Assembly (NCBI GenBank): GCA_009917695.1
Contig: JAACJG010000001.1
Location: 207,219-271,218 of the forward strand
From: Candidatus Rifleibacterium amylolyticum
GTDB taxonomy: Bacteria > Muiribacteriota > Ozemobacteria > Ozemobacterales > Ozemobacteraceae
Reading direction: 5' to 3'
Length of the DNA: 64,000 nucleotides
The position numbers were made by a program, and so were the translations under genes. Numbering within the stretch: the stretch's first letter is position 1; the number at the start of each line of letters is the position of its first letter. Below the pieces are notes generated by a model, which did no database searches, was not told the DNA's origin, and saw only the letters and a list, made by a program, of their open reading frames with translations. This document shows positions 14,732 through 28,228 of the stretch, in pieces.

Positions 14732-15238
14732 TCAGTCGGGATCTATTGGTTTTTCAGGAGATCCATGAACAGTGCACTTGATTAAGCCATCCTGCGCAAG
14801 ATCTCCGTCATTAATATACTGCCCCGGCGGGCTGCCCGGACAGGTTGCCGTATACTTAAGATATTTTCCGGAAGTCAGCAGGTTCATTACTCCGTCGTCC
14901 ATGTGGTGAAGCAGTTCATTATGATCCATATTGTACATTTCGATAGCCCCAAGAATAACTCGCTGATTGGCAAAGCAGGCCTTCATTCTTGAGTGACCAC
15001 TTCGTCTTGGCCTGCTGTTTGGCAGCGCGATAGCGGCCAGAATGCCAATAATAGCTATGATTATGGCGATTTCTATCAGAGTCGGTCCCTTTTTAGGGCC
15101 TGGAGCGCTTAGTGTCAGTTCAAGCTTCTGTTCAGGCTCGTTACTATATTCTTCGAGCAGAGAACCACAGCGCCGGCAGAAGCTGAATTCGCTTCTGTTG
15201 GCAAAGCCACAGGCCGGGCAGTTCATTTCTTCTGGCAT
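14732..15238 (-). CDS. Type IV pilin-like protein with a zinc ribbon in its leader
   Basis: 168 residues. The N-terminus is a zinc ribbon, CPAC at residues 7-10 and CRRC at 21-24, with a short linker. A class III-type prepilin site follows: Gly51, then PTLIEI with the conserved Glu at +5, then a 20-residue hydrophobic helix ending ALPN. The C-terminal 95 residues resemble a small pseudopilin head with a Cys pair (TATCPG, IKCTVHG). Normal prepilin leaders are short, so a folded zinc domain on the cytoplasmic side is unusual. It is monocistronic on present evidence; no pilus assembly gene is nearby. Confidence 0.8.
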   Translation of the reverse strand: MPEEMNCPACGFANRSEFSFCRRCGSLLEEYSNEPEQKLELTLSAPGPKKGPTLIEIAIIIAIIGILAAIALPNSRPRRSGHSRMKACFANQRVILGAIEMYNMDHNELLHHMDDGVMNLLTSGKYLKYTATCPGSPPGQYINDGDLAQDGLIKCTVHGSPEKPIDPD

Positions 15239-15345: not shown

Positions 15346-17286
15346 TTAGACGATTTTATTGCCGCGCTTGATATAGTGTGTATGCAGCAGTTTATGCGAT
15401 TTGTGACCGCAGGGACCGTCTTTGAGGAATTCTTTGTAGATAAGATCGACAGTCGGGTTTTCGTGCGATTTGCGCGCATAGAGAGTCTTTTCTTCGGCGT
15501 AGATTGCCTTGGTGCGCGCGGCGCGGATTTCGGGAGAAGTTGGAATCGGCTGGCCGCCGCCACCGAGACAACCACCCGGGCAGGCCATGAATTCGATGAA
15601 ATGGCATTCACTGAATTTGCCGCCGGCCTTGATGTCTTCCATGACTTTTTTGGCGTTGGCAGTACCGTGTGCAACAGCAACCTTAAGGGTCGCGCCGTTG
15701 AGGAAGCTGAAATCTTTGAGACCACCGAGAGCTTTGCTGAGAATCGGCGGAACCGGGCCAGCTGCCGGAACTTTGATTTCCATGTATTTAACGCCTTCGA
15801 AACCGCGAACCGGTATGATGTCGAGGTTTTCGAAGACTTTTTCGGTCTTGATGCCGGTTACGATTTCGACAGCGGTGCGCAGAGCTGCTTCCATGACGCC
15901 ACCGGTGGCGCCGAAGATCAGGCCGGCGCCGGTAGCTTCGCCGATTGGATCGTCGAAGTCGCTTGGCGGCAGATTGGGCAGATCAAGACCAACTTCCTGA
16001 ATCATCTGGGCGAGTTCGCGGCTGGTGAGGCCGTAATCGACGTCTTTATAGCCGCTGTCCTGCATTTCAGGGCGGTTGCATTCGAATTTTTTGGCGCTGC
16101 AGGGCATAAGAGCGACGGTGACGATATCCTTCGGGTCAATGCCAGCTTTTTCAGCATACCAGGTCTTGATGATCGAGCCGAACATCTGCTGCGGGCTCTT
16201 GCAGCTCGACAGGCAGTCGGTATATTCGGGGTAGAAGTGTTCGAGGAACTTGACCCAGCCCGGAGAGCACGAAGTAAACTGCGGGAAGGCGACCTGTTCT
16301 TTATCGACCAGAGCTTTTTTGAGTCTGATCAAAAGCTCGGTAGCTTCTTCCATGATAGTCAGGTCGGCAGTGAAGTTGGTGTCGAATACCTTGTCAAAAC
16401 CGCAGCGACGCATGGCGGTATTCAATTCGCGGGTGACCGAGGTGCCGGCCGGCAGTCCGAAGCATTCACCGATAGCGGCGCGCGGGCTTGGTGCCGTCTG
16501 AATGACAACGTGCTTTTTGGGATCATCGATAGCCGCCCAGATTTCATCGGACGGATCGTTGGCGCGCAGAGCACCGGTTGGGCAGCGGTTAATGCACTGG
16601 CCGCAGTTGATGCAGACGACTTCGCCAAGAGGCATGTCGGCAAAGGTGGCGATGTCAAGGTCGGGGCCGCGGTTAACGGCTTCGAGGACGCCAACTTCCT
16701 GGAGGTCGATGCAGGTTCTGACGCAGCGGCGGCACTGTATGCACTTGTTCATGTCGCGCACAACGCTGTAGCTGGAGCGGTCGATTTCGTGGTGCGGTTC
16801 GCTGTCATGGCCGAAGCGGTAAAAATCGACGCCATATTCTTTCGACAGACTCTGCAGTTCGCAGTTATTGTTGCGGAAGCATGAATAGCACTCGCCGACG
16901 TGATGCTTGAGCATGAGGTCAAGATTGTGTCTGCGAGCCTTGCGAACCTTGGGCGAGTAGGTTTTGATGGTCATCGGGCTGGTTATCGGATAAGCGCAGG
17001 CGGCCTGTAGAGTCCGCTGTCCTTCGACTTCGACGACACAGACGCGGCAGACGCCGGCGACATGAAGGTCCTCGTGGTGGCAAAGGGTTGGGATTCTGAT
17101 ATTCAGCTTTTTGGCGGCATCAAGAATGGTGGTTCCGAATGGAACCTTGATTTCGTTACCGTCAATATTCACGGCGATCATGGCTCCGAGTTCCTTCTCG
17201 TTTTTGGCAACTTCTACAGAAGCGACAACCGAGCTGGCGGGAGCGCGATCCGGACCGAATTTGGTGTTGTTATCTTTGTTAGGCAT
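15346..17286 (-). CDS. hydA: [FeFe]-hydrogenase catalytic subunit, NAD-linked trimeric type (set 1)
   Basis: Produces or consumes H2 at an H-cluster; alpha subunit of a cytoplasmic HydABC-type enzyme. After a 35-residue extension come a [2Fe-2S] ferredoxin domain (Cys69, 80, 83, 97), a His-ligated [4Fe-4S] module (HxxxCxxCxxxxxC near 129-142), two [4Fe-4S] ferredoxin motifs (182-192, 225-235) and the H domain. H-cluster motifs are TSCSPGW at 338-344, MPCSAKKFE at 394-402 and EFMACPGGC at 565-573, and the small-subunit-like tail ends in LLHTHYIKR. The residue after the first ligand Cys is Ser rather than the Cys that relays protons in CpI-type enzymes. It is the last gene of the RR-hydC-hydB-hydA operon. 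No HydE, HydF or HydG maturase gene is in the window. Confidence 0.94.
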   Translation of the reverse strand: MPNKDNNTKFGPDRAPASSVVASVEVAKNEKELGAMIAVNIDGNEIKVPFGTTILDAAKKLNIRIPTLCHHEDLHVAGVCRVCVVEVEGQRTLQAACAYPITSPMTIKTYSPKVRKARRHNLDLMLKHHVGECYSCFRNNNCELQSLSKEYGVDFYRFGHDSEPHHEIDRSSYSVVRDMNKCIQCRRCVRTCIDLQEVGVLEAVNRGPDLDIATFADMPLGEVVCINCGQCINRCPTGALRANDPSDEIWAAIDDPKKHVVIQTAPSPRAAIGECFGLPAGTSVTRELNTAMRRCGFDKVFDTNFTADLTIMEEATELLIRLKKALVDKEQVAFPQFTSCSPGWVKFLEHFYPEYTDCLSSCKSPQQMFGSIIKTWYAEKAGIDPKDIVTVALMPCSAKKFECNRPEMQDSGYKDVDYGLTSRELAQMIQEVGLDLPNLPPSDFDDPIGEATGAGLIFGATGGVMEAALRTAVEIVTGIKTEKVFENLDIIPVRGFEGVKYMEIKVPAAGPVPPILSKALGGLKDFSFLNGATLKVAVAHGTANAKKVMEDIKAGGKFSECHFIEFMACPGGCLGGGGQPIPTSPEIRAARTKAIYAEEKTLYARKSHENPTVDLIYKEFLKDGPCGHKSHKLLHTHYIKRGNKIV

Positions 17287-17301: not shown

Positions 17302-18492
17302 TTATCTGCATGAGCATCTGGTATCGAAGATTTCAGACTTGAAGTTTTCGATGATCGACAGAAACGCATTAGGCGCGCTCTGACCGAGACCGCATTTGCT
17401 TGAAAGCTGCATGGTTTCTCCGAGGGCACAGAGTTCGCGCAGGTATTTGAGCGAGCATCTGCCTTCGTCAAGCATGTCCAGGCCTTCGAGCAGGGTTTCG
17501 GTGCCGAGTCGGCAGGGGGTACACTGTCCGCATGATTCTTCACAGAAGAATTCCATGAAGTTGATGGCGACTTCGAGCATGTCGCGATGCGGGCCGAATA
17601 CTATGATCGAACCACCGGTTGCAACGTCTTCGTAAGCAATTACCCGTTCGAAATCCTTGCGGGGTACACAGGTTCCTGAGGCTCCGCCGACCTGAACCGC
17701 TTTGGCATCTTCGCCGCCAACAGTTTCGAGCAGCTTTTTGATGGTAATGCCCATCGGAAGTTCGTAAACGCCGGGTTTTTCGCAGTCGCCAGAAATGCTG
17801 AAAAGCTTGGTTCCGGTAGATTTTTCGGTGCCGAAAGTCTTGAACCATTTGGCGCCCTTTTCAACTATATGCAGGGCAGTGATGAAAGTTTCGACATTGT
17901 TGACCGAAGACGGGCAGCCGAGATAACCGACGGTTACCGGGAAAGGCGGGCGATTGCGAGGTTCGCCGCGATGGCCTTCCAGGCTTTCTATCAGTGCAGT
18001 TTCTTCGCCGCAGATATATGCGCCCGAACCCATGTGAATGTGAACATCAAAGTCAAATCCTTCTTTGCCAAGGATCTTTTTGCCGAGCATTTTCTTGCCG
18101 CGCATCTTTTCGATGGTGGCTTCGAGATCTTTTTTCAGATAGGTATATTCGGCTCTGAGATAGATGATGCCGTCCTTGGCTCCGACCGCGTAGGCGGCGA
18201 GAACCATGCCGGCAACAAGCTGTTCGGCATAATCAGTGAGCAGAACACGGTCTTTGAAAGTGCCGGGTTCGCCTTCGTCGGCGTTGCAGATGACAAATTT
18301 GCGCTCGCCCTGAGCAGCAGCTGCCAGGTTCCATTTTACTGCAGTCGGAAAGCCGGCGCCACCACGGCCCTTCAGGCCTGAATCGCGAACTTCACCGATG
18401 ATATCGGGTCTTGTTTTTTGCAGGGCGTTTTTGAGCGCCTTTTCTACATCTATGTCTGAGAAAATAACTAATTTTTTGTCAGCCTTGCTCAT
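17302..18492 (-). CDS. hydB: NuoF-like hydrogenase subunit HydB, short form (set 1)
   Basis: FMN and NAD(H)-binding subunit that passes electrons between NADH and the HydA clusters. The flavin site GRGGAGFP and the NADEGEPGTFKDR block are clear, as is the N3-type [4Fe-4S] motif ESCGQCTPCRLG with its distal Cys in SSKCGLG. At 396 residues it lacks both the N-terminal thioredoxin-like [2Fe-2S] domain and the C-terminal two-[4Fe-4S] ferredoxin found in classical bifurcating HydB and in the set 2 protein of this window. That reduced form is more like NADH-dependent, ferredoxin-independent trimeric hydrogenases; this is inference. Its start overlaps the hydC1 stop. Confidence 0.92.
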   Translation of the reverse strand: MSKADKKLVIFSDIDVEKALKNALQKTRPDIIGEVRDSGLKGRGGAGFPTAVKWNLAAAAQGERKFVICNADEGEPGTFKDRVLLTDYAEQLVAGMVLAAYAVGAKDGIIYLRAEYTYLKKDLEATIEKMRGKKMLGKKILGKEGFDFDVHIHMGSGAYICGEETALIESLEGHRGEPRNRPPFPVTVGYLGCPSSVNNVETFITALHIVEKGAKWFKTFGTEKSTGTKLFSISGDCEKPGVYELPMGITIKKLLETVGGEDAKAVQVGGASGTCVPRKDFERVIAYEDVATGGSIIVFGPHRDMLEVAINFMEFFCEESCGQCTPCRLGTETLLEGLDMLDEGRCSLKYLRELCALGETMQLSSKCGLGQSAPNAFLSIIENFKSEIFDTRCSCR

Positions 18493-19001
18493 GCGTGTTC
18501 TCCTTGAATTACGTGGGCGCCAAAGCGGCTTCGGTAACTTTCGATGATGTCAGCAACTTTTTCGGGGGTGACTTTGGTGTGAATGTCGTCGTTAACGAGC
18601 ATTGCCGGGCCCTGGTCACACATGCCGAGGCAGTTGGTGAATTCGAGGGTGAACATGCCATCAGTGGTGGTTTCGCCGAATTCAATGCCAAGCTCATTTT
18701 CGAGCTGATTGGCTACGGCTTCTTTGCCGGCCATGTCGCAGCTGATGGTGCGACAAAGGCGAATTACAAATTTTCCCTTCTTCTCGGTTGACAGGAATGA
18801 ATAAAAACTCACCACTCCCTGTACTTCAACCGGGTGAATTTTGAAGGCTTCAGCTATGTCCTGCATGGCTTCTGGGGAAATATGTCGGCTGACGTTCTGT
18901 ACAAGTTGCAGAACCGGGATAAGACCACTGCGATGGTGGTCATATTTTTTTGCCATCTTGTTAATTTCGGCTTTTAACTGGTCTCTTTCAGAGGCAAGCA
19001 T
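18489..19001 (-). CDS. hydC: NuoE-like hydrogenase subunit HydC (set 1)
   Basis: A 170-residue thioredoxin-fold [2Fe-2S] protein of the NuoE/24-kDa family. Cluster ligands are in CRTISC and in CLGMC of the DGMFTLEFTNCLGMCDQGP block. It is the partner of the short HydB, whose start codon it overlaps by four bases. The N-terminal helical part (GLIPVLQLVQNVSRHISPEAMQDIA, in two pieces) is typical. AAGGAG precedes the ATG. Confidence 0.92.
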   Translation of the reverse strand: MLASERDQLKAEINKMAKKYDHHRSGLIPVLQLVQNVSRHISPEAMQDIAEAFKIHPVEVQGVVSFYSFLSTEKKGKFVIRLCRTISCDMAGKEAVANQLENELGIEFGETTTDGMFTLEFTNCLGMCDQGPAMLVNDDIHTKVTPEKVADIIESYRSRFGAHVIQGEHA

Positions 19002-19023: not shown

Positions 19024-19392
19024 TTACTTGATGTACTTTTTGACAGCCTTGAGCAGCTTGTCTTTGGCCAGAGGTTTTTCGAAGAATTCGTTTACCGGTA
19101 CCATCTCTTCGTCTTTGTCGAATTTCATGCCGGTAACCTTTGAAACTGAGGTCAGCATGATGATGGGAATATTATTCTTCTCTTTTCTGATTTTCTGGGC
19201 CATCGCGAAACCGTCGTCGGGCTCGACCATCATAACATCGAGAATCAGGAGATCTGGTTTTTCGGCTTTAAGAACTTTATAGCCTTCTGTTGGATCGTAG
19301 GCAGTCAGGATCTTGTAGCCTTCTTTTTCGAGCAACATTTTGTTGATTTCGACAAAATCTTTGTCGTCATCAACGAGCAGTATTTTAGCCAT
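19024..19392 (-). CDS. Single-domain response regulator (receiver only), first gene of hydABC1 operon
   Basis: A CheY-like receiver of 122 residues: acidic pocket in LLVDDDKD, phospho-acceptor Asp52 in LLILDVMM, conserved Thr in IIMLTSV and Lys in EKPLAKD. There is no output domain, so it must act by protein-protein contact or as a phosphorelay intermediate. It lies 22 bp upstream of hydC1 and is preceded by a Rex-like operator, so it is expressed with the hydrogenase. Its closest local relative is the receiver at 20,825. Confidence 0.9.
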   Translation of the reverse strand: MAKILLVDDDKDFVEINKMLLEKEGYKILTAYDPTEGYKVLKAEKPDLLILDVMMVEPDDGFAMAQKIRKEKNNIPIIMLTSVSKVTGMKFDKDEEMVPVNEFFEKPLAKDKLLKAVKKYIK

Positions 19393-19406: not shown

Positions 19407-19424
19407 ATGTGAAATATTGCACAA
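19407..19424. promoter_or_regulatory. Rex-like operator in front of the hydABC1 operon
   Basis: ATGTGAAATATTGCACAA agrees with the known Rex consensus TTGTGAAATATTTCACAA at 16 of 18 positions. It is 15 bp upstream of the receiver gene start. Its 16-bp core is identical to the reverse complement of the site in front of rex at 28,171, so both units probably answer to the same NADH-sensing repressor. Confidence 0.7.
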
Positions 19425-19678: not shown

Positions 19679-20828
19679 TCAGGTGGTCGAGGCTTCGGCA
19701 CATTTGCTTAGGGGAATCGTAAGCGTGAAGGTAGTGCCCTGGTCGGGTTCTGATGCAACGCTGATATTGCCTTCGTAGAGTTCAGCGAGGCGTTTGAGGA
19801 TCGACAGTCCGAGTCCGCTGCCGAGGATGTTGGCTGTTTTTGCGTTTTTGATACGCGAAAACTCTTTGAAAAGCTTTTGCTGTTCTTCTGCAGACATGCC
19901 GATACCGGTGTCGGCAACCTGAACGCTGATATTGTCGGCAGTCTGCTCAAGTCTGACCATTACCTTGCCTTCGTCCCGGTTGTATTTAACCGCGTTTGAA
20001 ATGAGGTTGTTAAGCATCATGTCGATTTCGCCGACATCAGCCATTATGCTCAGGGTGGCTGGTGCTTCGAGACTGATACTGATGCTGCGGGCGTTGGCTG
20101 CCGGAGTGGCAAGCTCGATCGCATTTTCAGCGGCTTTTCTAAGATCGACTGCAACAAGATTGCGCGATTTTTTGCCGGACTCGAGCCTGGTCATATCAAG
20201 CAGGTCGACGATCAGCTTGCGCATCTGCTGAAGTCTGATCGAACTGCGTTCGATAAACTGCAGGTAACTGTCAAGATTATCGCCGAGTGTCTTCGTTTTC
20301 ATCAGTTCGAGATAGCCTTCGACAGCGCCAAGAGGCGCCTTGAGTTCATGACCCAGAACTCTGATGAATTCGAAGCGAACCTGCTTCTTTTCATGTGCGA
20401 GCTGGGCGTTTTTGCGGGCAAGCAGTATTCTTTCGGCTGCCTTGCGGGTTACGGTGCGCAGCTCGTTCGGGGTAAAAGGTTTCGGCAGAAAATCGTAGGC
20501 ACCCTTGCGGGTCGCCTCGATCGCAACTTCGATCGAGGCATAGGCGGTGATCATTATGATTATCAGATCTTTGGCATGTTCGCCAAGCTTTTCGATAATC
20601 TCGATCCCGTTCATGTCGGGCAGCTTGTAATCAAGAAACATTATGTCGGGCTTGCCTTCGAGAACTTTGGCAACGCCTTCGCAACCGGTGCCGGCACTTT
20701 CGACCTCTACTTCGAGATCGTCAGTACCCCAGAAATTCAGGGTTTCGCCGTTGAGAGTGCGTTCTACCCCCCATGCGCATTCCTGGTTCGTCGTCGATTA
20801 CCAGCACGCGTAGCTTGTTCATGCTCAT
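19679..20828 (-). CDS. Receiver/histidine kinase hybrid, interrupted by a frameshift
   Basis: A response receiver followed by a histidine kinase. Translation from 20828 gives MSMNKLRVLVIDDEPGMRMG and then leaves frame at a run of six Gs (20767-20772, C on the plus strand). Removing one G restores VERTLNGE and continues into MFLDYKLPDMNG, ITAYAS and KPFTPNEL, a complete receiver. The kinase part is intact: phospho-His in GHELKAPLGAVEGY, N box LNNLISNAVKYN, G1 DTGIGM and G2 GSGLGLSI. As given, only the 320-residue piece from 20641 is one frame and it begins inside the receiver. This may be a sequencing error, a phase-variable homopolymer or a real lesion. Its start overlaps the stop of the receiver gene upstream. 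Confidence 0.8.
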
Positions 20829-21217
20829 TCCTTGAGGAGCCTTTTGATTTCCTGATGCAGCTGTTCAGCACGAACAGGCTTTTCGAGAAGGGCGTCGGCT
20901 TTGATCCAACGATGCTCTTCGCGGGTTTTTACATTGAAAGCCAGTCCGGTTTCAGCAGCTACGCCGGTCACCATAATGATCGGCATCTCTGGCAGGCGTT
21001 TTTTGAGGTTGTGGCAAAGGGTGAAGCCGGAGTCGTGTTCTTCCATCATCAGATCTACGACGGCTAAGTCGGGAGTCTGGTGATTGAGAACTTCGATGGC
21101 GGCAGTAGCATTCTCGGCTTCGATTACCTTGTAATTGTGGGCTTCGAGCATGACTTTCTGCTGCGTTCTAAAATCGTGATCATCATCTACGAGAAGTATT
21201 GTTCTGACCTGTTGCAT
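20825..21217 (-). CDS. Single-domain response regulator downstream of the sensory hydrogenase kinase
   Basis: 130-residue receiver with LLVDDDHD, phospho-acceptor Asp55 in LAVVDLMME, IIMVTGV and LLEKPVRA. There is no output domain. It starts 25 bp after the sensory hydrogenase/kinase gene, the most likely phosphodonor. It resembles the receiver at 19,024 (shared LMMEEHDSGF / VMMVEPDDGF segment), which suggests duplication. Confidence 0.9.
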   Translation of the reverse strand: MQQVRTILLVDDDHDFRTQQKVMLEAHNYKVIEAENATAAIEVLNHQTPDLAVVDLMMEEHDSGFTLCHNLKKRLPEMPIIMVTGVAAETGLAFNVKTREEHRWIKADALLEKPVRAEQLHQEIKRLLKE

Positions 21218-21242: not shown

Positions 21243-23279
21243 TCAGCTAATGAATTGTTGTGAACTTGAGTCTTTGGCGGCGCGGCGGGGAAAGGTTACG
21301 GTGAAAGTCGTGCCGGTCGGGCCCTCAGACTGATCTGCATTGCTTTCGACCTTTATGTCGCCGCTGTGCATTTTGACAATGCCGTAGGTTACCGCAAGAC
21401 CAAGACCAGTGCCTTTTCCGAGCTGCTTGGTCGTGAAGAACGGCTCGAAAACCCGGTTCATGTTCTCTTTTGGTATGCCTTTGCCATTGTCCTTTATTGC
21501 GTATTTTATCTTGTCGGGAGTTCCGATGACTGAGATTTCGAGATCACCGCCGTTTTCCATGGCAGCGACCGCATTGCTCATGATGTTGGTGAGGACCTGA
21601 ATTACCTGGTCGCCATCGACCTCGGCAATCGGGTCTTCGTCACACCGATCGATTCTGGTTGTGATTGTATAGGGTATCTGCACGAGCTTGAGTGCGTCTT
21701 CGACCAGCTTGTTCATATCGGTCGGCATTTTCATGACCTTGTTCTCGCGGGCGAAGTTAAGCAGGCCGGCGACGATTTTCTTACAGCGGTCGGCCTGACT
21801 GGCGATAACCGAAGCGTCTTCGCGTTCGCGGGTGCCTTCTCTGCAGGCGTCCTGCATAAGGTGCGCATACATCAGAATGACGCCGAGCGGGTTATTGATT
21901 TCGTGCGCGATGCCGGCGGCGAGCTGACCCATGCTGGCAAGTCTCTCGGCATGCATCAGGGCTTCCTGAATGCTCGAAAGCTTCTTGTTGCTGTGTTCGA
22001 GTTCGCCAATTGCCTTTTCGAGTTCGCCAATCGTATAAGGCAGGCACATTTCGCTTTCGGCCAGATTGTGGAAGATGGCAAGCGCGTGTTCGCGACAGGA
22101 ATCGTAGCCGCAGGCGCCGCAGTTGAGCTCGTCTTCGCGGGAAAACTTGCCCATTTCGGCCATGATCATCTTGATGACTTCGTCGTCAGGTTTTTCCTGG
22201 CGTTGATCGCGGTTGCTATAGCGGCGAGTCAGATCGAGCTGCGAGTATTTTTCTATGTCGTCTTTCCAGCGCTTAATATCCATCTTATCCAGGCGTTTTC
22301 GTGTGTGGCGACCGATTCGGTGGCGCCGGCTGAACTGTGACGCGGCGTCAGGGCTCATGCCAGCCCCCATGATGCATCCTTCGCAGGCGAGCACTTCGAG
22401 CAGGCGGGTCTTGAGGGTTCCATCTTCGAAGCTTTTGAGTGCTTCGACGAAATGCAGGCGGTCGTTGATGGTGATGACATCATCTGAAATGAGATCTTCG
22501 GTTATGCCAGCAGCCTGCAGCAAGCCTCCGCCAACTGGAAAAATATTGCCGGTTCCGCCCCAGGGCGGGGCGAAATCGACTTCTTCTATCTTGTCTGGTG
22601 TGATGTTGCTCTCAGCCAGCATCTGCCTGAGTTCAACGAAGGTGAGAACGCAGTTAATCTCGCCTTCAAGGTTTGGGTCGAAGCCTTCGCACTTTTTAGC
22701 GGTACATGGACCGATGAAGACGATCTTGATATCCTGGCCGCAGATCTCTCTGACGACACGGGCGGTTGCCACCATTGGACTGACGATCGGTGACAGTGAT
22801 TCGAGCAGATTCGGGTGGTAGTGCTCGACCATGTTTATGATTGCCGGGCAGGTGGTGGCGATGTATGACTTGCCATCATTCTGGCTGTGCAGCAGCTCAC
22901 GATATTTTCTGGCAACGAGATCGGCTCCGAATGCAACTTCATTCACCCGGTCAAAACCAAGTTTCAGCAGCATTCCGACGAACTGTTTGCGGTCGATTTC
23001 GTGAAACTCAGCCGCAGCACTGGGGGCAACGATAGCTGCGACCGGTTCTTCGCGCGACAGCAGGATGCGGCAGTAAGCGGTCGAATCCAGCACCTGCTTG
23101 GCTTTGCGTGAGCATACGCGCACGCAATTCCCGCAGCCGATACATCTGTCGTTGATAACCTTGGCCTGGCCGTCAATAACTCTGATTGCCTTGGCCGGGC
23201 AGGTTCGCACGCAGGTGTAGCATTTTCGGCATCTTTCCGGGATGGTAAAGATGGTGCCTTCTTTGATCGTATTCGTCAT
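21243..23279 (-). CDS. Sensory [FeFe]-hydrogenase-like protein fused to a histidine kinase
   Basis: A 678-residue fusion, presumably a cytoplasmic H2 or redox sensor. Two ferredoxin-type [4Fe-4S] motifs ([12 protein letters not shown] at 17-28, [12 protein letters not shown] at 46-57) lead into an H-cluster-like domain with one Cys at each ligand region: TTCPA (Cys144), GPCTAKK (Cys192) and ACEGCIMG (Cys299, Cys302). It departs from catalytic enzymes in lacking the TSCCP/TSCSP form and in having CxxC instead of CxxxC at the last motif. A further [4Fe-4S] domain follows (Cys387, 390, 395, 412), then a short coiled coil and a kinase with phospho-His459 in [11 protein letters not shown] and an ATPase part ([16 protein letters not shown]). 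It lies in one operon with rex and hydABC2. Binding of H2 by this protein is inferred. Confidence 0.9.
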
Positions 23280-23300: not shown

Positions 23301-25016
23301 TTATTTAACCACGTCGCGTTTGGTGTAGTGAGTGTGCAGAAGCTTGTGGCTTCGGTGACCGAGCGGTTCGCCGAGGTATTCCTTATACAGTTTCTGTATG
23401 TCGGGGTTAAGGTGCGAGGCGCGGTATTTGTCGTTCTTGTCAATACTATACAGCGACTTCATTCTGGCGGCAACAGCTTCTGCTGTTACGCCGATTGGTT
23501 GTCCGCCGCCGTTGATACAGCCGCCCGGACAGGCCATGATTTCGATGAAATGCAGGTCGTTGCGGCCGGCGCGAATTTCGTCGAGCAGATCAGAAGCATT
23601 TTTCAGGCCGCTGACAACAGCGACGCCGATTTCGGTGCCGTCAATGCTGATTTTAGCTTCTTTGCGTCCTTCAAGGCCTCTTACCGATTTGATGTCGAGA
23701 TCGCTGAGCTCTTTGCCGGTGATAAGATGGTAGGCTGAGCGCAAGGCTGCTTCCATGACGCCACCGCTGGCCCCGAAAATTTTACCGGCGCCGGTTTTGA
23801 GGCTGAGCGGATTGTCAGCAGGCTCGGGCTCTATGGTATTGAGGTCGAGGCCGCGCATTTTCAGCAGGCGAACGAGTTCGCGAGTGGTGATGACCGCGTC
23901 GATATCAGGAATGCCGTCAGTGAGCATTTCTTCGCGGGTAACTTCGAATTTTTTCGCGATACATGGCATGATCGATACGCTGAAGATCTTTTTCGGGTCG
24001 ATTCCAGCTTTTTCAGCATAGTAGCTCTTGATGACCGCGCCCATCATCTGCTGCGGGCTTTTGCATGAAGAGAGGTTTTCGAGCATGTCAGGGTAGAATT
24101 CTTCGGCAAACTTGACCCAGCCAGGTGAACAGCTGGTAATCATCGGCAGTTTTCCCTTGCCTTTGAAACGCGCTACGAATTCAGAGCCTTCTTCCATGAT
24201 GGTCAGGTCAGCTGTGAAGGAAGTATCAAAAACCTTGTCGAATCCGATTCGGCGCAGAGCAGCGTTGAGCGGGCCGGTACATTCAGTGCCGGCTTTGAGG
24301 CCGAAGGCTTCGCCAACTGAAACCGAGATAGCCGGAGCGTGCTGGACAACGACAATTTTGTCGGGATCGGCAATTGCTTCGAGGACTTCTTTGGTTGAGC
24401 TTTTTTCTCGCAGGGCGCCGGTTGGGCAAACTTTGATGCACTGCCCGCAGAAGACGCAGGAGCTTTTGTTGATACCTTCGTTAAAGGCTGTTTCAATGCG
24501 GGCTTTGCAGCCGCGGCCGGTAAAGTCGATGGCTGAAACATTCTGAATCTCTTCGCAGACGCGTACGCATTTGCCGCAGAGAATGCACTTGGCCGGGTCG
24601 CGTTCGAGCGCCGGGCTCGAAACATCGAGGTGGCAGGTGCTCTTTTCGCCCTGATAACGGCGGGTTCGCACGCCATATTCTTCGGCGAGAGTCTGCAGTT
24701 CGCAGTTGCCGTTGCGCACGCAGTAAAGGCAGTCATCCGGGTGATCGGCGAGCAGCAGTTCTATGATGGTTTTGCGGGCTCTGACCGCTTTCTGGCTGTG
24801 TGTCTGGCATTTCATGCCTTCGCTTACAGCAGTGGCGCAACTCGGCACCAGGCGACCGTCCATTTCGACGACGCAGAGGCGACAGGCTCCGGAAGGCGGC
24901 AATCCTTCGAAATGGCAGAGAGTGGGAACTTTGATTCCAGCCCGCCGGATTGCGGTTAACAGCAGTTCGCCCTTGTTAGCTTCGATTTGTCTATTATTTA
25001 CTTCGATTGTTGTCAT
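23301..25016 (-). CDS. hydA: [FeFe]-hydrogenase catalytic subunit, HydABC type (set 2)
   Basis: 571-residue alpha subunit. It has a [2Fe-2S] domain (Cys34, 45, 48, 60), a His/Cys [4Fe-4S] module (HPDDCLYCVRNGNC), two ferredoxin motifs (CILCGKCVRVC, CVFCGQCIKVCP) and the H domain with TSCSPGW at 294-300, MPCIAKKFE from 350 and IMACPGGC ending at Cys500. It is clearly paralogous to the set 1 protein (shared FDKVFDT.FTADLTIMEE and LLHTHY.KR blocks) but lacks its N-terminal extension. Like set 1, Ser follows the first ligand Cys. With the full-length HydB next to it, this is the better candidate for an electron-bifurcating enzyme that couples NADH and reduced ferredoxin to H2. Confidence 0.94.
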   Translation of the reverse strand: MTTIEVNNRQIEANKGELLLTAIRRAGIKVPTLCHFEGLPPSGACRLCVVEMDGRLVPSCATAVSEGMKCQTHSQKAVRARKTIIELLLADHPDDCLYCVRNGNCELQTLAEEYGVRTRRYQGEKSTCHLDVSSPALERDPAKCILCGKCVRVCEEIQNVSAIDFTGRGCKARIETAFNEGINKSSCVFCGQCIKVCPTGALREKSSTKEVLEAIADPDKIVVVQHAPAISVSVGEAFGLKAGTECTGPLNAALRRIGFDKVFDTSFTADLTIMEEGSEFVARFKGKGKLPMITSCSPGWVKFAEEFYPDMLENLSSCKSPQQMMGAVIKSYYAEKAGIDPKKIFSVSIMPCIAKKFEVTREEMLTDGIPDIDAVITTRELVRLLKMRGLDLNTIEPEPADNPLSLKTGAGKIFGASGGVMEAALRSAYHLITGKELSDLDIKSVRGLEGRKEAKISIDGTEIGVAVVSGLKNASDLLDEIRAGRNDLHFIEIMACPGGCINGGGQPIGVTAEAVAARMKSLYSIDKNDKYRASHLNPDIQKLYKEYLGEPLGHRSHKLLHTHYTKRDVVK

Positions 25017-25020
25017 GGCT

Positions 25021-27012
25021 TCACTCCTTCACGACTGCCTTGAACTTGCACACTTCATAGCATGCGCCGCATCTGATGCATTTGTCAGGGATGATGTAAT
25101 GTGGTGTTTTGACTTTGCCCATGATGGCTCCGGTTGGGCACTGTTTGGCACACATGGTGCAGCCAACGCACTTGTCGGCGTCGATGCTGTAGTTCAGCAG
25201 GTCGTGGCAGGCGCCCGCCGGGCACTTGCGTTCGAATACATGTGCTTCATATTCATCACGGAAGTAGCGCAGGGTCGAGAGCACCGGGTTCGGCGCGGTC
25301 TGACCGAGGCCGCACAGGCTGGTGTCTTTAATTACACCGGCGAGGCGTTCCATATACATTACGGCTTTGAAGCGCTCGAGACTGGATCTTTTGTCGCTGG
25401 TTTTCGGACGTTCGGTAATACTTTTGAGTGTTTCAAGAATTCTTCTGGTGCCTTCGCGGCATGGGATGCACTTGCCGCAGCTTTCGCGCTGAATGAAATC
25501 CATGAAGAACTTGGCGAGATCTACCATGCAGGTGGTTTCGTCCATTACTACCAGGCCGCCGGAACCCATCATGGCGCCGATGCCTTTGAGCGATTCATAG
25601 TCGATTTCGACGTCGAGATGCTGTTCTGGCACACAACCGCCGGACGGGCCGCCGATCTGTACGGCTTTGTAGCGCTTGCCATCGGCGATACCACCGCCGA
25701 TGTCGAATACCAGTTTGCGTATCGGGGTGCCCATGGCGACTTCGGCGAGGCCGGTATTGGCGATGCGTCCGGAAAGTGCAAAAACCTTGGTGCCGGGGCT
25801 GCCAGCGGTGCCAATCTGTTTGAACCAGTCGGCACCATGTCTGAAGATGTCGGGAACATTGGCAAGGGTCTCAACGTTATTGATGACGGTGGGGCAGCCG
25901 AACAGACCTGAAATGGCGGGGAAGGGCGGTCTGGGTCGGGGCATGCCGCGTTTGCCTTCGATGCTGTGGATCAGGGCCGTTTCTTCGCCGCAGACGAAAG
26001 CGCCGGCGCCCTGTTTGATTACCATATCGAGTTTGAAGCCGCTGTCGAGAATATTGTTGCCGATCAGGCCCCATTCTTTGGCTTCAGCTATTGCCCATTC
26101 TAGGCGCTTGATAGCAAGCGGATATTCGGCTCTTATGTATATGTAGGCCTTGCTGGCGCCGATGGAGTAGGCGCCCAGAAGCATACCTTCGAGCAGGCGG
26201 TGTGGATCGCCTTCGATGACGGCGCGATCCATGAATGCGCCCGGGTCACCTTCGTCGGCGTTACAGATCAGGTATTTCTTGTCGCCGGCGGCTTCGAGCG
26301 CGAAGCGCCATTTTTTGCCGGTCGGAAAACCACCGCCGCCACGTCCACGCAGGCCGCTGCTTTCTATCATGCTGCAGGCTTCGGTGGGGGTTTGCGTCTT
26401 GAGTGCCTTGGCGAGACCGAGGTAGCCGCCACGCGCTATGTATTCTTCAATGTGAACCGGATTGATTTCGCCGCAGTTGGCGAGCACGCGCCGTGTCTGT
26501 GGCTTGAAAAAGGACGACGCGAAAAATTCAGGCACGTCTTTCCAGTTGCTGCTTTCTTCGCAACTGAACTGCCCGAGAAGGTTCTCTGCGGGTACGCTGC
26601 CGGCAAAAACCTTATCGAGAATGCCGTTGACTTTATCGCCGCTGACTTCGCCGAAGCTGACACGAGCGCGGCCAGGCAGCTGAATGTCCATTATCGGTTC
26701 TTTGATGCAGAGGCCAATACAACCAACTTCGAGGACTTCAGCTTCTTTTTTGTTGCTGGTCAGCCATTGCTTGACCGCTTCGAGCGTCTGAGCAGCTCCG
26801 GCGCCCAGGCCACAGGTTCCGGCACCAACGTAGATGACCGGCTTTTCAATTTTTTTGCGGCTGATCAGGTCGAGAGATTCACGTCGCAGATTGCGGCAGT
26901 CGGTGCTCTCGTGGCAAACCGGGCCGTTAACCCGGCATTCAATCAGGTCTGGGCAGGGCTTGTCGGCTGAATGATGACATTTCGAACAACAGGGATCATG
27001 CATTTTTTTCAT
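25021..27012 (-). CDS. hydB: NuoF-like hydrogenase subunit HydB, full-length form (set 2)
   Basis: 663 residues. A Cys-rich N-terminal extension (CCSKCHHSADKPC onwards, about nine Cys in 40 residues) precedes a thioredoxin-like [2Fe-2S] domain (GTCGLGAGA, CIGLC). The NuoF core follows, with GRGGGGFPTGKKW, NADEGDPGAFMDR and the N3-type cluster ESCGKCIPCREG. The C-terminus is a two-[4Fe-4S] ferredoxin (CVGCTMCAKQCP and CIRCGACYEVCK). This domain order is that of bifurcating HydB. The start overlaps the hydC2 stop (ATGA) with GGAGG just upstream. The N-terminal Cys-rich stretch is not part of the standard subunit. Confidence 0.94.
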   Translation of the reverse strand: MKKMHDPCCSKCHHSADKPCPDLIECRVNGPVCHESTDCRNLRRESLDLISRKKIEKPVIYVGAGTCGLGAGAAQTLEAVKQWLTSNKKEAEVLEVGCIGLCIKEPIMDIQLPGRARVSFGEVSGDKVNGILDKVFAGSVPAENLLGQFSCEESSNWKDVPEFFASSFFKPQTRRVLANCGEINPVHIEEYIARGGYLGLAKALKTQTPTEACSMIESSGLRGRGGGGFPTGKKWRFALEAAGDKKYLICNADEGDPGAFMDRAVIEGDPHRLLEGMLLGAYSIGASKAYIYIRAEYPLAIKRLEWAIAEAKEWGLIGNNILDSGFKLDMVIKQGAGAFVCGEETALIHSIEGKRGMPRPRPPFPAISGLFGCPTVINNVETLANVPDIFRHGADWFKQIGTAGSPGTKVFALSGRIANTGLAEVAMGTPIRKLVFDIGGGIADGKRYKAVQIGGPSGGCVPEQHLDVEIDYESLKGIGAMMGSGGLVVMDETTCMVDLAKFFMDFIQRESCGKCIPCREGTRRILETLKSITERPKTSDKRSSLERFKAVMYMERLAGVIKDTSLCGLGQTAPNPVLSTLRYFRDEYEAHVFERKCPAGACHDLLNYSIDADKCVGCTMCAKQCPTGAIMGKVKTPHYIIPDKCIRCGACYEVCKFKAVVKE

Positions 27013-27482
27013 TGGCCGGCCTCCTCGCTTTGCTTTCGGTAGTTTCTCAGAATTTCAGGTATGTCGTCAGGTTTGACCTTGGCGTGGAAGTTGCCATTGA
27101 TGGCAATGACGGGGGCCAGTCCACAGGCGCCGATGCAGGCTACTACTTCGATGCTGAACATGCCGTCACGGGTGGTCTCGCCGGCTTTAATACCAAGTTC
27201 GCGCTCGATGCGGCCGAGAAGTGCTGCGCTGCCCTTGACATGGCAGGCGGTGCCGCGGCAGACCTGAATGGTCCATTTGCCGTGAGGACTGAAGCGGAAC
27301 TGGTTGTAGAAAGTGGCTACACCATAGATCTTGCTTGCAGGCAGATCAAGGGCTTTGCCAATTTCAATGACCGATTCGCGCGAGATGAATCCCTCTTCTT
27401 CCTGTACTGCCTGCAGGATCGGAATGAGAGAATCGCGCCCGGGATTGGAGATCTGTTGGATGATTTTTTCTACCACGCTCAT
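27009..27482 (-). CDS. hydC: NuoE-like hydrogenase subunit HydC (set 2)
   Basis: 157-residue [2Fe-2S] thioredoxin-fold subunit. Ligands are in VCRGTACHVKG and VACIGACGLAPV; the helical start SLIPILQAVQEEEGFIS and YGVATFYNQFRF are family marks. It is first of the hydC2-hydB2-hydA2 trio and begins 15 bp after rex, so it shares the rex transcript. AAGGAAA precedes the ATG. Confidence 0.94.
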   Translation of the reverse strand: MSVVEKIIQQISNPGRDSLIPILQAVQEEEGFISRESVIEIGKALDLPASKIYGVATFYNQFRFSPHGKWTIQVCRGTACHVKGSAALLGRIERELGIKAGETTRDGMFSIEVVACIGACGLAPVIAINGNFHAKVKPDDIPEILRNYRKQSEEAGQ

Positions 27483-27497
27483 ATTGACTTTCCTTTG

Positions 27498-28133
27498 CTA
27501 TGTATTTTTCCGGGAAAAGTAAATCGCTTTTTCAAGTGCGCTGGTCATATCGAGAGTCTCGATAAAAACCCCGCTGCCGGTTGTAATGTGTCTGGGAGCA
27601 AAATTCAGAATTGCCTTGATGCCTTTGTCGATAAGATTCTGCGCTTCTTTTTCGGCGCTTTCAGCAGGTACGGCAAGAATTGCCGTGCTGATCTTCAGCT
27701 CATCGATCATGTTCGGGAGCTGCTCCATGCTGTAGCAGCGGCGACCACAGATGATGCGGTTGTACTTGGCGGGGTCATTGTCGAATGCCGCAACTATATC
27801 GTAGTTGTCGCGAGCACCTGAAAAATAACCGAGCAGAGCTCGACCCAGATTGCCAACTCCGATCAGCGCAATATTCTCTTTTTTGCTGCAGTCCAGTACT
27901 TTTGAGATTTCTTTGATAAGCAGACTGATTTCGTAGCCTTTGCTCGAGCATCCGTTGCAGCCTACTTCCATAAGGTCTCGCCTGACCTGGGCCGCAGTGC
28001 CAGACACGATCTGTGAGAGTTCATGCGAATACACACGATCTTTGCCTTTTTTGTTCAGATCCTTGAGATAGCGCCGGTACACACTCAGGCGCTCGATTGT
28101 TTTTTCCGATATTCTGTTTTCTTTTCTAGTCAT
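27498..28133 (-). CDS. rex: Redox-sensing transcriptional repressor Rex
   Basis: 211-residue repressor whose DNA binding is released by NADH. The N-terminal winged helix (residues 1-80) holds RLSVYRRYL, SGTAAQVRRDLMEVG and SSKGYEI; the NAD(H) Rossmann motif GVGNLG is at 92-97 and a C-terminal swapped helix closes the protein. The ATG at 28133 matches the usual Rex N-terminus; an upstream in-frame codon at 28193 would run through the operator and is rejected. The wing region carries a CNGC pair (Cys59, Cys62) where many Rex proteins have an FGxxG-type loop. First gene of the operon, with a Rex-like box over its own -10, so autoregulation is likely. Confidence 0.95.
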   Translation of the reverse strand: MTRKENRISEKTIERLSVYRRYLKDLNKKGKDRVYSHELSQIVSGTAAQVRRDLMEVGCNGCSSKGYEISLLIKEISKVLDCSKKENIALIGVGNLGRALLGYFSGARDNYDIVAAFDNDPAKYNRIICGRRCYSMEQLPNMIDELKISTAILAVPAESAEKEAQNLIDKGIKAILNFAPRHITTGSGVFIETLDMTSALEKAIYFSRKNT

Positions 28134-28170: not shown

Positions 28171-28188
28171 CTGTGCAATATTTCACAA
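28171..28188. promoter_or_regulatory. Rex-like operator over the rex -10 box
   Basis: CTGTGCAATATTTCACAA, in the rex direction TTGTGAAATATTGCACAG, matches 16 of 18 positions of the Rex consensus and shares its 16-bp core with the site at 19,407. It covers the predicted -10 hexamer, a position expected for repression. Confidence 0.75.
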
Positions 28189-28206
28189 CTCAAGTATAAT
28201 CGTCAA
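28178..28206 (-). promoter_or_regulatory. Predicted promoter of the rex-hydABC2 operon
   Basis: On the minus strand TTGACG (28206-28201) and AAATAT (28183-28178) are separated by exactly 17 bp. The -10 lies within the Rex-like operator. Confidence 0.5.
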
Positions 28207-28228
28207 AGTCGAGAGTGTCAATTAAATT

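Follow-up and report, generated by a model that had tools for sequence, protein, structure and literature searches.

A sensory-type [FeFe]-hydrogenase domain with a contracted cluster motif is fused to a histidine kinase beside a bifurcating-type hydrogenase in Candidatus Rifleibacterium amylolyticum

Gene organization of the locus

The window, the 64,000-nucleotide stretch of Candidatus Rifleibacterium amylolyticum DNA analyzed here, had its nearest records in HGW-Riflebacteria-1 and GWC2_50_8 (86-89% protein identity, best segment). On the minus strand, rex, hydC1, hydB1, hydA1, the sensor kinase, REC1 and a receiver-kinase form a compact operon in which neighboring genes are -4 to +25 bp apart. 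The sensor kinase is its fifth gene and lies 21 bp downstream of hydA1 in this group A6/A3 hydCBA operon. A second operon, consisting of REC2, hydC2, hydB2 and hydA2, follows the first. A preliminary description of this DNA had placed a direct kinase fusion inside a hydrogenase operon, which was borne out: HisKA and HATPase_c are in frame, behind a bifurcating-type hydCBA. The features of the two operons, apart from the sensor, were as follows.

28193-28221, minus strand: promoter-like TTGACA-17-TATACT before rex (consensus scan, 11/12 matches)
28172-28188, minus strand: Rex-type operator TTGTGAAATATTGCACA, which overlaps the region where the rex-hydCBA-sensor operon starts (palindrome match; kept upstream of rex in loci L008, L049 and L050)
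27498-28133, minus strand: rex, NAD(H)-responsive redox repressor (NCBIfam Rex models, best E 8e-60)
27009-27482, minus strand: hydC1, NuoE-like thioredoxin-like [2Fe-2S] subunit (PF01257, E 6e-49)
25021-27012, minus strand: hydB1, NuoF-like flavin subunit with ferredoxin tail (Complex1_51K, NADH_4Fe-4S, Fer4; NuoF_pre_CCxxC)
23301-25016, minus strand: hydA1, NADH-dependent group A6 [FeFe]-hydrogenase catalytic subunit (NF040763, 842 bits against a cut-off of 765; canonical CPGGC L3)
20825-21217, minus strand: REC1, lone receiver domain without output domain (PF00072, E 1.1e-20; conserved as the next gene in relatives)
19679-20817, minus strand: receiver-HisKA-HATPase partner kinase, frameshifted (three-frame comparison)
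19408-19424, minus strand: second Rex-type operator TTGTGCAATATTTCACA, upstream of REC2-hydC2B2A2 (L008, L050 and L056 have a similar site ahead of this gene)
19024-19392, minus strand: REC2, second lone receiver and first gene of the second hydrogenase operon (PF00072, E 1.4e-21)
18489-19001, minus strand: hydC2, NuoE-like subunit of the second hydrogenase (phmmer with hydC1, 107 bits)
17302-18492, minus strand: hydB2, NuoF-like subunit of the second hydrogenase (Complex1_51K)
15346-17286, minus strand: hydA2, second group A6-type [FeFe]-hydrogenase catalytic subunit (NF040763, 802 bits against a cut-off of 765)

The start given for rex, ATG 28133, follows a 211-aa relative; called mechanically, the ORF begins at TTG 28193. 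Just downstream of hydA2, positions 14732-15238 encode a short protein that has a zinc-ribbon-like CxxC in its N-terminal part and a hydrophobic stretch like that of type IV pilins.

Rex-type palindromes occurred at only two places in the 64 kb, each matched on both strands, against a chance expectation of 0.01. Because these sole two boxes stand before the two operons and similar sites are found in relatives, both hydrogenase operons are probably transcribed under NADH/NAD+ control by Rex.

Domain structure of the sensor kinase

The preliminary description had a single frame joining ferredoxin motifs, an H-domain, an FeS domain and a full kinase. Coordinates, strand and frame were correct, and Pfam agreed, with Fe_hyd_lg_C, FeS, HisKA and HATPase_c all matched within the 678-aa frame.

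21243-23279, minus strand: sensor kinase, 678 aa, with two [4Fe-4S], H-domain, FeS, HisKA and HATPase (ORF and Pfam)
23100-23246, minus strand: N-terminal domain with two [4Fe-4S] motifs, C17x2Cx2Cx3C and C46x2Cx2Cx3C (Fer4_10; Cys invariant in 16 relatives)
22362-23045, minus strand: H-domain (Fe_hyd_lg_C), residues 79-306 (E 1.6e-47)
22044-22121, minus strand: C-terminal [4Fe-4S] domain, Cx2Cx4Cx16C, with C387, C390, C395 and C412 (PF04060; Cys invariant or nearly so)
21744-21932, minus strand: HisKA dimerization/phosphoacceptor domain, His459 (PF00512, E 5.6e-14)
21282-21617, minus strand: HATPase_c catalytic domain (PF02518, E 5.8e-24)

Pfam set the 4Fe-4S dicluster at residues 12-56 (E 9e-9; cluster Cys C17/20/23/27 and C46/49/52/56), the FeS domain at 385-414 (E 3.6e-7), HisKA at 450-512 and HATPase_c at 555-666. 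The kinase boxes were complete (HEINNP 459, N box 566, DNGKG 597, PFFTTK 613 and GTGLGLAV 623), giving the protein the phosphoacceptor His and the H, N, G1, F and G2 boxes of a two-component histidine kinase. Pfam returned no PAS match in the sensor kinase, and merely about 35 residues separate the FeS domain from HisKA; this linker was helical in a low-confidence AlphaFold2 model. The full-protein AlphaFold2 model, built from four input sequences, had a mean pLDDT of 43.6, which is too low to judge L3 geometry or fold.

Relatives of the sensor were 73-87% identical, and dN/dS was well under 1 for the H-domain as well as for the kinase, with dS near saturation. The ORF is therefore not a chance frame, and all its domains are under purifying selection.

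Placement among [FeFe]-hydrogenases

In the H-domain tree of 151 rows, the sensor belonged to a clade of 11 rows (SH-aLRT 99), all of them kinase fusions, drawn from seven family-level groups. The catalytic group A block (52 rows, SH-aLRT 100) lay well apart from this clade; the deep branching order among sensory lineages was weakly resolved. The earlier view of the H-domain as sensory agrees with this tree, in which the sensor is outside catalytic group A, and the grouping with enzymes that would have contradicted it was not seen.

Two N-terminal [4Fe-4S] motifs and a C-terminal Cx2Cx4Cx16C motif, the latter a signature of groups C and D (M2f and M2e; PMC8163306), flank the H-domain of the sensor. 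As in groups C and D, the proton-relay Cys is not kept and M353 and M497 are replaced; changes at the C299, M353 and M497 positions are known from sensory proteins (PMC10055695, PMC8163306). The PAS domain that characterizes group C proper (M2f, TmHydS-like) is missing after the C-terminal FeS domain of the sensor.

Two characterized sensory proteins were compared with the sensor. TmHydS of Thermotoga maritima (group C, M2f) shares the two [4Fe-4S] motifs, the H-domain, the C-terminal FeS domain, the replacement of M353 by Gly and the lack of the proton-relay Cys, but it differs in containing a PAS domain and lacking a kinase, in its conserved cluster Cys ligands and in having Ser where CpI has M497 (PMC10055695, PMC8163306). 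TamHydS of Thermoanaerobacter mathranii (group D, M2e) shares the N- and C-terminal clusters, including Cx2Cx4Cx16C, the lack of PAS and Leu at the M497 position. However, its own chain lacks a kinase (an HK-like ATPase is encoded by a separate flanking gene), and it has Ser instead of Gly at M353 (PMC8163306).

The genome of the window has all three outputs of the HydDB scheme: the kinase fusion, an H-domain/HAMP/MCP fusion, and a PAS-type sensor with a SpoIIE phosphatase next in line. The second of these (L018:8204-11008, contig C21) is a 934-aa protein of group C2 type with H-domain, HAMP and methyl-accepting chemotaxis domains and a CxxxC L3; fusions of this kind were also seen in genomes G022 and G013. 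The third lies at L016:13339-17686 (contig C14), where a monomeric 484-aa [FeFe]-hydrogenase, a PAS-type sensory hydrogenase and a SpoIIE phosphatase stand in a row downstream of another hydA.

Among other genomes, a sensory H-domain was joined to a sigma54 activator (AAA+, Fis HTH) at L169:108-2363, L171:5804-8071, L175:6618-8894 and L185:4756-7038, and the L171 fusion lies directly downstream of hydG-hydE-hydF. By its predicted domains, such a fusion is a one-component transcription activator. No kinase fusion was found on viral contigs or plasmids; the plasmid search returned a Ruminococcus albus protein of the PAS/SpoIIE type and others of group B, D-like and catalytic types, all CxxxC where L3 was readable.

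A conserved cassette with receiver partners

The order hydC-hydB-hydA-(REC)-sensor kinase-REC-receiver kinase was conserved in Riflebacteria and in unrelated family-level groups (loci L155, L158, L160, L161, L172, L194 and L195, and partly others), and the cassette often also includes hydE/G/F. Its response partners were lone receivers and the receiver-kinase, for which domain scans gave no DNA-binding output, and among the genes of the cassette there was no DNA-binding regulator but Rex. The suggestion of a two-component system controlling its own hydrogenase is incomplete, since the adjoining partners are receiver-only proteins and a receiver-kinase.

Cluster ligands and the L3 contraction

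The three loops that bear the ligands of the H-cluster in hydrogenases read as follows in the sensor.

22845-22856, minus strand: L1 motif TTCP, Cys144 retained, proton-relay Cys replaced by Thr (alignment)
22695-22712, minus strand: L2 motif GPCTAK, Cys192 and Lys195 retained (alignment)
22374-22388, minus strand: L3 motif ACEGC, contracted CxxC, Cys299 and Cys302 (alignments; codons TGC GAA GGA TGC)

The alignment gave Thr, Gly and Leu at the positions of CpI C299, M353 and M497; the C299 equivalent is Thr because TTCPA holds a single Cys. All four cluster Cys are kept, yet L3 is C-E-G-C, with one residue fewer between the Cys pair than the CxxxC spacing of an H-cluster. To our knowledge, every characterized H-cluster protein has an L3 one residue longer than that of the sensor. 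The altered motifs named at the outset (TTCPA, GPCTAKK with M353 changed to Gly, and CEGC) were all real, but calling CEGC altered understated it, as it is a CxxC contraction conserved across the kinase-fused lineage.

CxxC was present in 27 of the 31 kinase fusions of the main sample and in three added later. The four without it were all degenerate: one had no L3 region, one had no second Cys, and two had SAC instead of GPC in L2. Every ligand-intact kinase fusion therefore had CxxC (30/30), and two of the four sigma54-activator fusions had an intact L2, both with CxxC; together with this pair, the motif spans 17 family-level groups. H-domains of the PAS/SpoIIE, chemoreceptor, group B, group D-like and catalytic types all had CxxxC wherever L3 was readable. 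A single origin of CxxC was not rejected (p-AU 0.52; 29 rows, L3 columns excluded), a result that does not demonstrate it either. A literature search that covered few subscription journals returned no paper on a CxxC H-cluster motif with kinases, nor on sigma54 fusions.

Maturases and the nature of the cluster

Because the L3 Cys motif is shortened, an H-cluster in the sensor cannot simply be assumed. CxxC with Cys144 and Cys192 could instead hold a [4Fe-4S] cluster only, without a [2Fe] site, and the protein would then be an iron-sulfur redox sensor whose kinase follows the ferredoxin/NADH redox state, O2 or NO. The one-residue contraction exactly at the L3 Cys pair speaks for this alternative. 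The authors of a study on Hydrogenedentota barely found H-cluster motifs in HATPase-bearing C1 proteins and doubted that they sense H2 (PMC11406978).

The distribution of maturases bears on this choice from both sides. The genome of the window had HydG on contig C18 (449 bits) and HydF on contig C29 (585 bits), both above cut-off. Maturase genes also lay near CxxC sensors elsewhere (hydE/G in G367, hydE/G/F in G064, hydG/F in G007, and hydG in G036-G039), and in G177 hydG-hydE-hydF stood directly ahead of a CxxC sensor-sigma54 fusion, each above its curated cut-off; the HydA of G177 had a separate hydG on its own contig. Such placement of hydGEF directly beside CxxC sensors argues against a [4Fe-4S]-only protein. 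So does ligand retention, as the cluster Cys and the Pro and Lys of PCxxK were intact in 44 of 45 sensors with a genomic maturase compared to 6 of 13 without, and the lone exception among the 45 was a non-CxxC protein. The association had a Fisher p of 4e-5 on counts that are not independent of relatedness, and an independent-pair covariation test, which had too few pairs (4 on starred branches), was not significant.

In contrast, the CxxC sensors of G097, G237, G185 and G322 occurred in genomes with neither HydG nor HydF above cut-off and with no group A-level match among the matches listed (the phylum of G097 is represented by one genome), and in two of these four the Lys was changed to Arg. 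These sensors fit the [4Fe-4S]-only alternative; they suggest that certain lineages have a domain that functions with no [2Fe] site of the usual kind or by another maturation route. Absence of HydF and HydG was also considered as proof that there is no H-cluster, and this was rejected because the near-complete genomes G117, G118, G338 and G183 have a catalytic HydA and neither maturase in recognizable form. With G382 and G407, these make up a set of genomes, good to near-complete, that encode catalytic [FeFe]-hydrogenases (judged by group A scores or by adjacent hydA genes) but in which no HydF or HydG passes the cut-off. Suggested causes are maturases that have diverged, gaps in the assemblies or a different maturation route. 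Maturase absence is thus a weak signal. Two CxxC sensors of 1032-1033 aa (L180:4052-7153 and L182:6224-9322) had PAS, HisKA, HATPase and C-terminal receivers, the domains being those of the L180 scan, and their genomes had no other H-domain protein and no HydF or HydG.

Taken together, the maturase linkage and the conserved cassette would favor a true H-cluster and H2 sensing. Judged from sequence, the chance that the sensor protein contains an H-cluster is about two in three, and the [4Fe-4S]-only alternative is clearly the less likely one, at somewhat more than one chance in four.

Proposed function

We propose, with a probability of roughly 0.6, that the protein is a cytoplasmic sensor kinase of the known histidine kinase-linked sensory [FeFe]-hydrogenase kind, most likely with an H-cluster, that reads H2 beside a bifurcating hydrogenase. 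The H-cluster would be made by the Hyd maturases of the genome despite the short L3. The H-domain would then read H2, or an H2-poised electron balance determined by the bifurcating hydrogenase that shares its operon, and a change in the H-domain and its FeS relay would pass through the C-terminal [4Fe-4S] domain and the helix to the DHp helices of the kinase. Phosphorylation of REC1 and of the adjoining receiver-kinase would be altered, in a direction that the model leaves free, and the final output would be encoded outside the cassette. Work on TamHydS argues that H2 does not reduce its C-terminal cluster (PMC13104023), so a conformational rather than electronic signal is worth considering. 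Points that weigh against the proposal include the frameshift of the receiver-kinase gene in the window and the absence of a DNA-binding response regulator from the cassette.

The sensor could also be non-functional in this organism, as the partner receiver-kinase is frameshifted at a run of six G (20767-20772). However, the frame is intact in three relatives (L008, L050 and L056; the L008 protein is 381 aa with receiver, HisKA and HATPase by Pfam scan), the sensor itself is under strong purifying selection, and in a draft genome a one-base error in such a run is equally likely, which makes a dead pathway improbable. Least likely is an enzyme of slow hydrogenase activity that has a second role as a kinase and adds to H2 turnover: HydS enzymes do turn over H2 slowly (PMC8163306, PMC10055695), but here the proton-relay Cys is Thr, the M353 and M497 positions are replaced, the H-domain groups with sensors instead of enzymes, and two full hydABC enzymes are encoded alongside.

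Relation to known systems and significance

The novelty implied for the kinase fusion did not survive comparison with the literature. In 2016 HydDB divided group C into histidine kinase-linked (C1, putative), chemotactic (C2) and phosphatase-linked (C3) proteins (PMC5037454). Like the window sensor, C1 has a sensory-type H-domain tied to a histidine kinase and is a predicted H2 sensor; C1 is defined by sequence clustering and linkage, and the window sensor is likened to it by kinase linkage. The 2024 Hydrogenedentota study describes kinase-domain group C proteins beside A3 bifurcating hydrogenases, terms the kinase-domain proteins C3, and reports that the best C1 match of the Hydrogenedentota proteins had no HATPase domain (PMC11406978). 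One of these, BfuT (group C3, beside BfuABC), resembles the window sensor in joining a group C H-domain to a His-kinase next to an A3 bifurcating hydrogenase (PMC11406978). The L3 contraction may explain why HATPase-bearing Hydrogenedentota C1 proteins matched H-cluster motifs poorly.

The sensor type is therefore of a known kind that was already predicted to sense H2. The present analysis adds the contraction shared in L3, the conservation of the receiver partners, the fusions to sigma54 activators and the linkage to maturase genes. An analogous scheme exists in the [NiFe] group 2b regulatory hydrogenase HoxBC with the kinase HoxJ, where an H2-sensing unit drives a histidine kinase; those are separate proteins, and the [NiFe] protein is unrelated to the window sensor.

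The characterized sensory [FeFe]-hydrogenases have no catalytic output in the protein, as TmHydS ends in PAS and TamHydS in FeS. The kinase of the fusion is a direct read-out, by autophosphorylation with and without H2, and a receiver is encoded next door. The shared one-residue shortening makes the idea of H2 sensing directly testable. Whether an H-cluster can sit on CxxC decides if H2 sensing is to be expected at all from many "histidine kinase-linked hydrogenases". We suggest tentatively, at a little under even odds, that one old lineage of direct-output sensory hydrogenases, comprising the kinase and sigma54 fusions, lost one L3 residue. Its members would then have either a new H-cluster geometry tuned for signaling or a [4Fe-4S] sensor without a [2Fe] site, carried in many lineages under the name of sensory hydrogenase.
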